A stretch of 23,043 bases of DNA, from IMG/VR virus record IMGVR_UViG_3300043436_003503, positions 1-23,043 of that record; one strand, given 5' to 3'. The position numbers and the translations under genes are program-made. The notes beneath the pieces were generated by a model. That model saw only the letters and a program-made list of their open reading frames with translations. It did not search any database and had not been told where the DNA came from. Source of the stretch: a virus. The number at the start of each line of letters is the position of its first letter. The stretch's first letter is position 1. Below, piece after piece: positions 18,512 through 23,043 of the stretch.

Positions 18512-19768
18512 CTAGGCTGCCTTTTTCTCCGCCGCGGCAATCCTTGCGCGGGCAATCTCCACATACTCGGCTTCCCGCTCGCACCCGATGAAGCGGAAGC
18601 CTTCGGCAATGGCTGCTTTTCCCGTGCTGCCCGACCCCATGAACGGATCAAGGACGACGCCACCGGGCGGTGTCACCAGTCGGCAGAGATACCGCATGAG
18701 TGCGGTGGGCTTGACGGTGGGGTGGTGGTTGCGGCGCTTTACTTCTGGCCTGATTCGATTCATACGCTCCGCAAAATCACCTGAAGGCCGATGGTCAAAA
18801 TCGGCTGCCTCATGTTGTTCCAACCCCTCGCACCCCTCGTCCCTGTCCGCCTTGCTCGCCTTTGCGCAGTAGAAGAACCGGGCGGCGGAACCGGAGTCGG
18901 AATAGCCAATATCACGGGTATCCTTCCGCCAGCCTCCTGAATAACCGCCCATGTCGCCTTTCTCGTCGCGTGATTTTCCCACATGTTTTCCGGAGTTTCC
19001 AAGCTGCGGAAACAGCTCCACCACCTCCTCGCTGCCGTCGTGAATCAGGTTCGCGGGCCAGCGGCCCGGGGGTGGCTGCTTGCCTTGGCTTGCGCGCTTG
19101 CCGTTTCCAAATGTGCCGTCCTGTTTCCAGTCGCGGTCAAACTGGCAGCTCATGTCCTCAGTGCCCACCCTGCACCCGTCAACGTTCAGCGCCCCGGTTC
19201 CGTGTTGCTGGACGTTCTCCGCCACCGTACCAACCAGCGGCTTGCGGGCGACCGTGATAGGCTCAAGCGCGGGCTTTAATGCGGTCCCCCAGCCGTCCCA
19301 TTGCTTCGCGGCTTCTGTTGCGGGGGCGGTGGCGTCTGGTCTGCTTGGCGCTCCGTATGTATTGGCCTGAACCAGCCCGCCACGCTCAGCCCATTCGTTC
19401 GGCCCGACAGTCTCCCTCTCTGCCCCCGCCGCCTTGTCTATCGCCTTAGACACGTCCAGCGATTTCGGAAATCCGGACCCATACACCCACGCGATCATGT
19501 CGCGGATCTCGAATCCGGCGTCTTCAATCCTCACCGCCATCCGGTGTTGTGTCCGCGTCCCCGCGAACGCCAGCAGGTGCCCGCCCGGCTTCAGCACCCG
19601 CAGGCACTCCGCCCACACGTCAACGGCTGGCACGTCGTAATCCCACCGCTTCCCCATGAAAGAAAGGCCGTAAGGAGGGTCGGTCACGACCGAATCGACT
19701 GAATTGTCAGGCAGTTCGCGCAACCGCTCTAGGCAGTCACCGTGGAGGAGTGTGATAGGGTTGTGCAT
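18512..19768 (-). CDS. Orphan DNA methyltransferase, beta group, probably N6-adenine
   Basis: 418 residues from the ATG at 19768, one base after the large terminase stop; a longer in-frame start inside the terminase gene is rejected. Motif IV is DPPY (30-33, in VVTDPPYGLSFMGKRWDYD), and the AdoMet-binding motif I DPFMGSGSTG (374-383) comes near the C-terminus. IV before I is the beta-class order, and DPPY favours adenine, although cytosine-N4 is not excluded. Between them, about 200 residues (VARKPLVGTVAENVQQHGTG, GRWPANLIHDGSEE) form a target-recognition-type insert. No restriction gene lies beside it, so self-protection against host restriction is likely. The flanking 11-base direct repeat suggests insertion between terminase and gpW. 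Confidence 0.88.
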   Translation of the reverse strand: MHNPITLLHGDCLERLRELPDNSVDSVVTDPPYGLSFMGKRWDYDVPAVDVWAECLRVLKPGGHLLAFAGTRTQHRMAVRIEDAGFEIRDMIAWVYGSGFPKSLDVSKAIDKAAGAERETVGPNEWAERGGLVQANTYGAPSRPDATAPATEAAKQWDGWGTALKPALEPITVARKPLVGTVAENVQQHGTGALNVDGCRVGTEDMSCQFDRDWKQDGTFGNGKRASQGKQPPPGRWPANLIHDGSEEVVELFPQLGNSGKHVGKSRDEKGDMGGYSGGWRKDTRDIGYSDSGSAARFFYCAKASKADRDEGCEGLEQHEAADFDHRPSGDFAERMNRIRPEVKRRNHHPTVKPTALMRYLCRLVTPPGGVVLDPFMGSGSTGKAAIAEGFRFIGCEREAEYVEIARARIAAAEKKAA

Positions 19769-19769
19769 A

Positions 19770-19780
19770 TCAAAGTTGCG
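19770..19780 (+). repeat. 11-base direct repeat flanking the methyltransferase, right copy
   Basis: The plus strand reads TCAAAGTTGCG, identical to 18498-18508. Here it encodes the last codons and stop of the large terminase (CAA CTT TGA on the minus strand). Confidence 0.75.
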
Positions 19781-21812
19781 TGTTTTCGTCCGCCTCCACC
19801 GCGTCAATCACGACGAGGGCGTACTTGATCAGGTCGGCTTTGTCGTTCGGGAGCCTCTCGTTCCGCTTCCTCCACCGAAGCTCCCGGATGTTCCCCTTGT
19901 CCGGCTTGGTGTGGTAATGCTCCATGTTCCCGATTTCAGTTAGCACCTCTTCGGACGTGTCAACGGGCAGGTTGACGGTCGGGCGGGTCGATTTCCCGTC
20001 TGCTGCCTTGGCGATGCGCTCCAGATGCAGCTCGTGTTCCCAGTGGTCGGCCTTGATCTGGATGATCCGCAGTGTGCAGGCCGCCCCGTACTTGTCCCGC
20101 GCAGGGAATTCCTTCACCCAGCGGGCTTTCACCCGCGCCATCCGATCTTTAATCGCGTCCTTGCCCCGGATGCCGACCCAGCGGATGCCGGCGGCTCCCG
20201 TGCTGCCTCCCTCCCCTGCCAGAAACTCATGGACGAGGTCCGCCCTGTACCCGGTATCAACGCACACCACTGCCACCGTCCACGGGTTGTCCGGGTCGTC
20301 GCGGTCGGTGAACTGCCTGTCGGCGACGACGTCGGGCAGGTCGGACAGCTCCGGCACCGACCCCCAGTCGAGGATCCACACCGATCCGTCCCAGCCCGCC
20401 GCCCATATCATCCACTCAACGCTGCCAATCTCTCCGGATGCGTTCCCCTGCCCGCGTTGAACGTCCGCCGTCATGCCCAGAAATCGGATGTCTGCCGCGT
20501 TGAGCGGGATTTTGAGCCGTGGCTTCCCGTCCCACTCCAGCCGACGATACCCCCTCTTCAGTTTCGCAACCGGCGCCACTGCCGCCCGCCGGATCTTGTA
20601 GCGGGAGAACGGGAGGCCGAGAATATCGGTATAAAACGCCTTCATCGTCCCCTCTCCGCCGCTCTCCGTCGCCTTTATGAACTCGTTAGCGATGGCTCCC
20701 CACCTGCGGGAGGCGAAGGCCATATTCAGAAACGCGCCACCCTGAAGCGAGCGGTGCCCGACGTCCGGCGAAAGGTTGGTCGCCACATAACGACGGCGGG
20801 CGATCATCCCGGGCTTCATGTCCTCAGTGATCGGCGGGCACTCGTCGCTGGCTTCGCATTGGTAGAACGTCTCCGCATCGACCCGCGACTTGTTCCACAC
20901 CGACTGCACGCCCTTGTCGCTCGTCTCCACGTCCTCCTTGCAGTGACCGAACCGCAGTTGATCCATCTTCAATTCCTGATAGTGCCCGCAGTGCGGACAC
21001 GGCACCTCCACTCGTTCCTGCGTCCCCCGCAGGTAGGACGCATGCACCACCGTCTCTTTCGTCACCACGGGCAGCAGCTTCCCGGATAACGGGTGCTCCT
21101 CGTACTCTAACGCATTGTCAGGCGTCGAGAACGCCAGCAGCTTCCCTTCGTCGTCCGCCGTAATCCGCCCCTCAAGTAGCTTGAGGCTGGGCATCTCGTT
21201 AATCAGGTCATGCTTTGCCACCTCGTCGGCGATCGTCAGGGAGGCGGGCTTACTGATGAACTCACTAGCCGATTGTCCGCCGCCGAGGTACAGCGTCCCG
21301 CCCCGGTTGTATCTCAGCGCAAGGGCCGTCGTCCGCTTCTCGTCCTTCGTCGCCGCCAGTTCCGGGTAGGCGTCGAGGATCGGTTCCAGCCGGTCACGGG
21401 CGAAGTCCCGCGCCTGCTGTCGGCAGTCGGTCACAAGGATGGCGTTGCCGCCCCGGAAGTTGATCCACCAGGCGAGCGCGTGCATGGCAATCGTGGAGAG
21501 GCCGGACTGCGAGTCCTTGAGGACCGTCGCCACCCGGTTCTTCACCCGTCGCGTGCTGCCGTCAGAGAAGAGAACGTCCGCTTCCGACTCCCGCAGGAAC
21601 TCGAACACCCAGTCGGCCAGAACGGCGAACTTGGAAAACTCCCACGTTTGCCCCGCCGCGGCTGCCATCCGGTTGTGATTCGCCGGAACGGGCAGCTTGT
21701 GCCCCTCCACCCACTCCCGGATCCCCGGCTCAGGCTCATAAAGCGGCATCCCGCGGATGATGTCGATCCACTGCCCCACCATCTGGAGGTTGAGGTGCCG
21801 ACGGTCACTCAT
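19770..21812 (-). CDS. Large terminase subunit, GpA type
   Basis: 680 residues from the ATG at 21812, which overlaps the small-subunit stop (ATGA at 21809-21812). It cuts concatemeric DNA and powers packaging. The N-terminal ATPase has a degenerate Walker A (KDSQSGLST, 99-107), Walker B LTIADE (192-197) and coupling motif STPD. A Cys pair CPHCG (272-276) and later Cys at about 319 and 325 resemble the zinc-binding element seen in GpA-type terminases. The nuclease part has FLGMTADVQRG (Asp450) and VVCVDTGYRADL (Asp519), the acidic metal ligands. Length and order match lambda gpA (641 residues), pointing to cos-type packaging. All key residues are present. Confidence 0.93.
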   Translation of the reverse strand: MSDRRHLNLQMVGQWIDIIRGMPLYEPEPGIREWVEGHKLPVPANHNRMAAAAGQTWEFSKFAVLADWVFEFLRESEADVLFSDGSTRRVKNRVATVLKDSQSGLSTIAMHALAWWINFRGGNAILVTDCRQQARDFARDRLEPILDAYPELAATKDEKRTTALALRYNRGGTLYLGGGQSASEFISKPASLTIADEVAKHDLINEMPSLKLLEGRITADDEGKLLAFSTPDNALEYEEHPLSGKLLPVVTKETVVHASYLRGTQERVEVPCPHCGHYQELKMDQLRFGHCKEDVETSDKGVQSVWNKSRVDAETFYQCEASDECPPITEDMKPGMIARRRYVATNLSPDVGHRSLQGGAFLNMAFASRRWGAIANEFIKATESGGEGTMKAFYTDILGLPFSRYKIRRAAVAPVAKLKRGYRRLEWDGKPRLKIPLNAADIRFLGMTADVQRGQGNASGEIGSVEWMIWAAGWDGSVWILDWGSVPELSDLPDVVADRQFTDRDDPDNPWTVAVVCVDTGYRADLVHEFLAGEGGSTGAAGIRWVGIRGKDAIKDRMARVKARWVKEFPARDKYGAACTLRIIQIKADHWEHELHLERIAKAADGKSTRPTVNLPVDTSEEVLTEIGNMEHYHTKPDKGNIRELRWRKRNERLPNDKADLIKYALVVIDAVEADENTQL

Positions 21813-22504
21813 GCGGCCAGAAGTTGGGTCACGTTCTCCGGCGCTCGCTTCCACGCCCTGCGCACGGCATCCTTCACTTTCTCCGCGGGGAAGTCGGCGA
21901 CCAGTTCGCGCACCACGGCCTGCATCAGGGCGGTAAAGAACGCGGGAAGGGCGGTGTTTACCTCCGACGGGTCGAGGATGTCGCGGGACTTTTCCAACCG
22001 CTGCCGCGTCTGCACCACCAGCTCAGACATTTCCGCCCATCGTGCCCGGTGGACGTCCAGCTCCGAGTCAGTGCCGCCCCGCGACAGCACCTCCACATAC
22101 CGCCGGTGCAACCGCGCCTCCTCGTCCTCCAGCGCCTCCAGCCGCCGCTTCGGCGTCATCACCTCCGGCTGCCCCTGCGGGATGCCCGGGAGCGTCGGTT
22201 GAGACGGCGGACGGCTGGCGGGAGCGGCGGGCGCTGGCGTCACCGTGCTGTGCTTCGCCGCCGCTTCACTCAGCACCGACGGGCAGACGTGGGTGATGTG
22301 GCCCGCCCTGCGCATCTGGCCGTACCACTCGACCATCGCCACTGGATCCCCCAGCGGGGCTGGCGTCCCGACCTCCTTCCCCAATCGCTGCCATCGCTGG
22401 AGTTGCTTCAGGATGCCCGGGCTGCGCTCCGCCGCATAGAGCGGCCAGAACGCGGCCGACTTCCTTCCGGAGTCTGGCGGGGGTTGGGGATTATCGGGGG
22501 CCAC
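21809..22504 (-). CDS. Small terminase subunit (candidate)
   Basis: 231 residues if translation begins at the GTG at 22504. An in-frame ATG at 22711 would add 69 residues translated from the intergenic repeat array; that stretch looks non-protein. A shared junction element with GGTGG lies just before the GTG. The N-terminal part (SAAFWPLYAAERSPGILKQL, then PLGDPVAMVEWYGQMRRAGH) may be the DNA-binding part, a Pro-rich linker (APAAPASRPPSQPTLPGIP) follows, and the rest is helical coiled coil (RRLEALEDEEARLHRRYVEV). No standard Nu1 helix-turn-helix is certain. Position directly upstream of, and overlapping, the large subunit makes the role likely. It would bind the adjacent repeat array and present DNA to the large subunit. 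Confidence 0.72.
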   Translation of the reverse strand: MAPDNPQPPPDSGRKSAAFWPLYAAERSPGILKQLQRWQRLGKEVGTPAPLGDPVAMVEWYGQMRRAGHITHVCPSVLSEAAAKHSTVTPAPAAPASRPPSQPTLPGIPQGQPEVMTPKRRLEALEDEEARLHRRYVEVLSRGGTDSELDVHRARWAEMSELVVQTRQRLEKSRDILDPSEVNTALPAFFTALMQAVVRELVADFPAEKVKDAVRRAWKRAPENVTQLLAA

Positions 22505-22527: not shown

Positions 22528-23043
22528 TGAAATGGACAGAAAACGGACAAATGACGGCTGACGGGTTCGCTCCGCCCAGCACCCTGCAACCCGTCAGCCC
22601 GTAACTCATTGATTGTTCAACGTTTTCTGCCAGCGGCTGACGGGATGACGGGTAAAAGCGCCACTCCCAACCCATAGATGCGCCCCGCCCGTCCATCTCA
22701 TCCAGCACCACCCCTCTCCTTCAAGCCAAAATCAACCGTCATCCCGTCAGTTTTGGCTAGTAAGTCGCAGAACTCGTTGATAATAAAGGAGAAATGGGCT
22801 GACGGGTTGGTTTTGCACCCGTCAGGCAACCCGTCAGCCGCGGCGCAACCCGTCAGCCTTGCCGGAACGGGTTCCCGGAACCGGAGGCGGGGCGTTCCGA
22901 CAACCGGCGGCCGCAAAATCCACCCCCAACCCACCCATGGAAAAGCACGCAAAAACCAGTTAGAAGCGTGCCGGATTAGTATCAAATGGACTCAAAAAAA
23001 ACATCCTAACGGCGCGCATTTTGATCGCGGCCTTCGGGCAACT
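22505..23043. other. Gene-free region upstream of the terminase genes
   Basis: No credible gene is seen. The region holds the CTGACGGG motif array (22556-22858) and compact dyads around 22862-22882 (GGAACGGGTTCC and GGTTCCCGGAACC). Paired near-repeats of TGTCC[AG]TTT occur near 22535-22555. On the minus strand an imperfect GC hairpin near 23014-23036 is followed by a T8 run (22993-23003 area) and could be a weak terminator for a gene further right. This is where lambda-type phages keep the cos site and the start of the late operon. Confidence 0.55.
22556..22858. repeat. Array of 12-base GGCTGACGGGTT motifs in both orientations
   Basis: Five perfect copies: plus at 22556-22567 and 22797-22808; minus at 22588-22599, 22828-22839 and 22847-22858. 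Partial copies lie at 22635-22653, 22734-22750 and 22816-22825. The first two perfect copies form a 12-base inverted repeat with a 20-base spacer. Two composite copies, CTGACGGGATGACGG plus GT at 22637-22653 and its inverse at 22734-22750, match at 16 of 17 bases. Candidate terminase-binding (cosB/pac-like) or regulatory sites. Confidence 0.75.

Follow-up and report, generated by a model that had tools for sequence, protein, structure and literature searches.

What is the role of some ten copies of one 12-base word that are packed into about 300 bases beside the terminase genes of a phage? The array lies in IMGVR_UViG_3300043436_003503, a virus record from an environmental sample, and the window analysed here is the whole record (positions 1-23,043; 23,043 b). 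The initial annotation had proposed a new cosB-type site, a pac site or an operator array. Comparative analysis leads us to consider it fairly probable that the array is an initiator-binding replication origin of the iteron/stem-loop kind and of the P4/D5-family SF3 type, carried on a segment of ~458 bases, and that a neighbouring GTCC box serves packaging.

The array and the genome end

The late operon is on the minus strand and runs leftward through terS, terL, a DNA methylase gene, portal (PF05136), an S49 protease and a protein that weakly matches a major-head PHROG. The methylase gene (N6/N4 type, PF01555; window 18512-19807) sits between terL and portal. The array is upstream of the terminase genes, as the initial annotation had it: the domains of the large terminase were found in the listed frame and terS lies just before it. 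The terS product had no match in Pfam or PHROG. The elements at this end of the window are listed below.

19770..21854, minus strand: terL (large terminase), with GpA_ATPase (PF05876, 4.8e-27) and GpA_nuclease (PF20454, 3.7e-15) domains
21809..22504, minus strand: terS (small terminase), 231 aa with a proposed GTG start, assigned by position and relatives
22530..22550, minus strand: two TGTCC boxes, 11 b apart, beside terS and common to L006 and L017
22552..23009: extra non-coding segment of ~458 bases carrying the array, delimited by blastn breakpoints
22556..22858, both strands: GGCTGACGGGTT array of 303 bases, with five exact copies and about five near ones
22988..22991, minus strand: GTCC box, candidate cosB/terminase box, 19 bases past GCGCGCC
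23010..23031: conserved cosN flank (GATCAAAATGCGCGCCG on the minus strand), part of the 34-base end
23032..23043: probable 12-nt cosN cohesive overhang (CTTCGGGCAACT / AGTTGCCCGAAG), the last bases of the record

The record ends at cos and the early genes are absent from it. Related phages were used to locate the end. The first 12 and the last 12 bases of G004 (36,802 b) are the same (GGTCGGGAAACT), as left by a filled-in 12-nt 5' overhang, and both the start of G008 and the end of the window fall at the base homologous to the G004 end. Positions 23032-23043 therefore represent a probable cohesive end, and the last base of the window is, on this sequence evidence, the probable cosN of the phage. 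The overhang and the GCGCGCC element are conserved in nine sequences, and the remaining relatives were assembled across the cos joint, as expected for concatemers or circles. The 34-base window end showed 97% identity to L006 and L017 and 88% to L007. Two further candidate members of the family, L174 and L178, were picked up through the cosN motif and rejected as chance matches. The G004 ends and the G008 stop place the array next to the genome end, between the probable cosN and terS, in keeping with the cos-like position that had been suspected.

Five exact 12-mers occur in the 303 bases of the array, against a mean of 0.00005 and a maximum of 1 in 20,000 first-order Markov simulations of the array region. 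For CTGACGGG sites with at most one mismatch the count was nine, against an expected mean of 0.44 and a maximum of 5, and every other 310-base stretch of the window held at most three of them. The exact GGCTGACGGGTT word was found nowhere in the rest of the record. The copies and the structures that they form are as follows.

22556+, 22588-, 22797+, 22828-, 22847-: exact GGCTGACGGGTT copies
22635+ (one mismatch), 22643+ and 22816- (two), 22733- and 22741- (three): near GGCTGACGGGTT copies
22556..22599: two exact copies in inverted orientation with 20 b between them (hairpin z -3.95)
22635..22654, plus strand: tandem pair CTGACGGGATGACGGGT, 8-base step
22733..22752, minus strand: inverted tandem pair, 8-base step, pairing with 22637-22651
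22751..22796: AT-rich stretch and possible melting region between the two site groups, at most 60% AT per 40 b, a moderate rise judged against a record of ~63% GC
22797..22858: four-site block, strands +,-,-,- and steps 18, 12, 19, matching blocks in L021-L024

The many exact and near copies in both orientations that had been read from the sequence were borne out, with all coordinates right, and the perfect 12-base inverted pair 22556-22567 / 22588-22599 consists of the exact copies at 22556+ and 22588-. The inverted composite units are also present. Their perfect inverted repeat comprises 15 bases (22637-22651 / 22736-22750), so that a 15-bp stem could form around 84 b; the predicted single-strand fold (z -2.79) differs from this stem-loop, which is possible and is not the lowest-energy form. 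A GC-rich palindromic patch (CCGGAACGGGTTCCCGGAACCGG) at 22859-22903 adjoins the array.

Close relatives and the packaging question

The ~458-base segment was present in one record only. In L006, L007 and L017 the conserved 34 bases at cosN run directly into the TGTCC boxes and terS, and segment and array are absent, although the TerS proteins of L006 and L017 are 90% and 91% identical to that of the window (L007, 71%). The expectation that related phages would carry the array at the same place was not supported by these three.

This bears on packaging. A cosB/pac-type site bound by the small terminase and expanded in the window phage would suit the position of the array, which is 185-488 b in from the genome end and immediately precedes terS, in the manner of lambda cosB, whose R sites are likewise repeats between cosN and the small terminase gene. 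The R sites are fewer and have a different word. The window array differs from them further in that it is not conserved among relatives that have the same TerS. Any site on which TerS depends for packaging should be found in all TerS relatives, so the lack of the array in L006, L007 and L017 leaves the cosB or pac suggestion unsupported. Conserved instead is a GTCC/TGTCG box, kept at a fixed distance from cosN (offset 18-19 past GCGCGCC) in nine of nine sequences, the window and eight relatives; by its sequence conservation this box is a better cosB candidate than the array. The word of the array is also found in other phages at genes for replication, the part of those genomes that was compared. 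We regard a packaging role for the array as improbable.

No homologue of the segment was found in named phages or plasmids, and Rfam gave no match to an RNA element in it. The GTCC box of the window lies within the segment, next to cosN and at the usual offset of the family, which argues against a simple insertion into plain sequence; the segment may have arisen by duplication or recombination at cos. The position of this box inside the segment, and a record that stops exactly at the cosN base, also speak against an assembly chimera. A single record carries the array and the match beyond the segment is confined to 34 bases, as a chimera would have it, and we hold that explanation to be very improbable.

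The main rival to the origin reading is a foreign insertion, either the origin piece of another replicon or a mobile repeat, that is functionless in the window phage. It would account for a segment that is seen in one phage and missing from L006, L007 and L017, and for the fact that no matching initiator was seen. Against it, the copies have stayed intact and have kept their layout, neither terminal inverted repeats nor a target duplication were seen at the segment breakpoints, and phage non-coding DNA is usually short-lived. A functionless insertion appears rather unlikely to us.

The same word at replication genes

IMG/VR was searched for the word without regard to genes. Thirteen contigs were returned, eight of which had at least three clustered copies (L021, L022, L023, L024, L158, L159, L162 and L164). 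The other five (L020, L157, L160, L161 and L163) had only 2-4 copies and were left out of the array count; L160 has a Prim-Pol gene nearby. The exact paired arrangement (12-mer, 5-30 b, inverted 12-mer) was found in no second IMG/VR contig and the composite inverted tandem nowhere else in IMG/VR.

All six arrays with a complete gene beside them were inside or 3' of a P4/D5-family (SF3) primase-helicase gene. In L021 and L024 a single gene codes for both a P4-type SF3 helicase and DNA polymerase A, and the linker between these parts contains 9-10 copies. A Pfam Prim-Pol domain was present in L024, and L021 had no Prim-Pol match at the threshold used. L022 and L023 showed the same linker and polymerase, with the remainder of the gene cut off. 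In L158, L159, L162 and L164 the array is 3' of a D5_N/DUF5906/Pox_D5 gene, directly at the gene end in L162 and L164 and with another reading frame intervening in L158 and L159. The D5_N-type gene belonged to the P4 primase family TIGR01613 in both loci of this group that were tested.

The arrays inside the coding linker (L021:3872-4130, L024:9128-9415, L023:9855-10117 and L022:68-327) recall the lambda origin, which lies inside gene O. Their loops hold an alternating purine-pyrimidine tract, such as GCGCGTATGTGTGTGCGCGC. At L158:3425-3560, downstream of the D5-family gene, a very strong stem-loop (z -7.33) carries CTGACGGG sites in each of its arms. The arrays of L023 and L158 had no homologues in named phages, and that of L023 had none in plasmids either.

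Bacterial genomes gave a different picture. The D5 profile detected the gene in six of six array loci with complete genes and in none of 116 inverted-pair-only bacterial genome loci; as these 116 are a different collection obtained with a looser pattern, the result is a contrast and not a matched control. The 116 stretches were mostly single inverted pairs of 25-26 b in Flavobacterium and Chloroflexi and included no dense array. A host repeat or MITE was rejected on this result, and the motif did not prove to be a common host repeat, which the initial annotation had allowed for. Many of the Flavobacterium and Chloroflexi genomes (L039-L154) have single CTGACGGGTT inverted pairs of 25-26 b in total, often several per genome, and these are possibly terminators.

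The layout of the sites was compared as well as the word. The order in the window is tandem pair (step 8), 89, inverted tandem pair (step 8), 57, and then steps of 18, 12 and 19. That in L021 is 9, 85, 8, 48 and then 19, 11 and 21, and the spacings in L022, L023 and L024 are 79-80, 8, 48-49, 18-19, 11 and 18-21. In 1000 permutations, which shuffled gaps and strands and were based on few sites, hand-listed positions and unequal tolerances, the layout match at a tolerance of 10 bases had P values of 0.001 (L021), 0 (L022), 0.004 (L023) and 0 (L024), and at 2-3 bases it was reached in at most 27 of 1000 permutations (P <= 0.03) for L021-L024. The four-site block at 22797..22858 matched L023 over 60 b at 85% identity (blastn, E 4e-12 in a small database of five loci). 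The fine layout was not common to L158 and L162 (P 0.04-0.85), though the word is. The word of the window matches arrays at SF3/D5 initiator genes, which are themselves putative origins, and the layout matches L021-L024 only.

These comparisons also bear on the reading of the array as an operator or another regulatory site, bound near the late genes by a repressor or an activator. Such a role would be in keeping with inverted copies that lie, on both strands, upstream of the late operon. However, a simple operator does not look like an array of some ten sites that includes an inverted tandem pair at a distance of 84 b, and the comparison arrays are inside or 3' of replication genes and not at promoters. 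The operator option of the initial annotation came closest in that a protein-binding array of another kind is proposed here; its regulatory part did not hold, with the matched arrays sitting at replication-initiator genes, and we rate it as quite improbable.

Replication genes are also found near cos in relatives of the window phage. G003, G004/G005, G007/G008 and L013 have a replicase-like ATPase gene left of cos (NANQxxSGK, FFDD, TGN and RR motifs), which ends ~450-500 b from cos in the three relatives measured. Several relatives also have a primase-like gene just left of cos, beside the ATPase with SF3-like motifs. The cos junction is thus a replication-gene neighbourhood in this family, and an origin could plausibly be sited where replicase gene, cos and terS meet. 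The cos-adjacent ATPase gave no match in a profile comparison with the D5 set and no meaningful match in a PDB search, and a model of its structure, built on four sequences, was of poor quality (mean pLDDT 42) and was set aside, so its SF3 kinship is argued from motifs and weak PHROG matches only. D5_N was absent from all 15 family records searched, and no SF3/D5 initiator gene was seen in the window, whose record is without the left side of cos. In L017, the closest full relative, there is a RepA-like ATPase module and the array is missing.

Other repeats (GAGGTTCGCGGAC and AGGTGTGC) lie between the replicase-like gene and cos at L169:12900-13390, L170:1-530 and L171:14205-14531, and they are perhaps the relatives' own origins. 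The reading frame at L170:5770-7668, in relative G004, matched both the central and the C-terminal domain of DNA polymerase III beta, and its product is a probable phage sliding clamp.

A putative acquired origin and known systems

What was observed is an array that sits next to the genome end, that close relatives lack and whose word recurs at P4/D5 initiator genes. As it is absent from close relatives and matches clusters at the replication genes of other phages, the array probably represents a replication start site that was acquired, rather than a packaging signal. Against an origin, the comparison arrays are always inside or beside their own initiator gene, whereas the window array is on the terS side of cos. 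In the proposed mechanism the initiator would be an SF3 protein with a winged helix, whose gene would lie either in the early region that the record lacks or on another element. It would bind the CTGACGGG sites that flank the inverted tandem pair and form rings. It would then melt AT-rich or stem-loop DNA and prime replication, and the neighbouring GTCC box, not the array, would serve packaging.

If the origin reading is true, the origin word CTGACGGGTT is common to phages with very different P4/D5-family replicases. The word would occur in three settings, namely within a gene for a helicase-polymerase, directly behind a helicase gene and next to cos, with one site layout common to the first and the last. 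It would provide a sequence signature for phage origins that otherwise have no annotation, the binding code of a winged-helix initiator family would become testable, and origins could move separately from their initiator genes. A more speculative extension, which we put forward as doubtful, is that a compact origin cassette read by a P4/D5-type initiator was acquired beside the cos of the window phage, the nearest relatives of which replicate with a different module, maybe via recombination at cos with a cos-carrying satellite; phage and satellite could then share or compete for one initiator.

Three kinds of known origin can be compared with the window. In pRN1 a stem-loop of ~100 bp lies 3' of the Prim-Pol/SF3/winged-helix gene and is functional when moved (PMC4234260). 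The likeness is a possible long stem-loop (15-bp stem and 84-b loop in the window); pRN1 differs in being without iterons, and the window stem-loop is not the lowest-energy fold. The phage P4 alpha origin has iterons that are read by a winged helix (PMC4234260). Many short sites, and a P4-family helicase-primase (TIGR01613) at the comparison arrays, make up the likeness to P4, and the Toprim primase carried by the P4 alpha protein is counted as a difference. In PICIs the origin follows the initiator gene directly on its 3' side, with AT-rich DNA between two sets of iterons (PMC6092414), and the D5-family helicases of SaPI and SCCmec bind repeats just downstream of their own genes (PMC7581432). 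Unlike these, the window array lies beyond cos, on the terS side and with no initiator in view, and the likeness is one of general arrangement. The PICI/SaPI arrangement is like L158, L159, L162 and L164 in having the origin at an SF3/D5-type initiator gene, and there are cos-packaged elements among them, as the window phage has cos. It is like the window in its short iterons and its two sets around a melting region (PMC6092414, PMC7581432): the window array consists of multiple short sites in two sets around AT-rich DNA, as in an iteron origin of the PICI/SaPI/P4 type.
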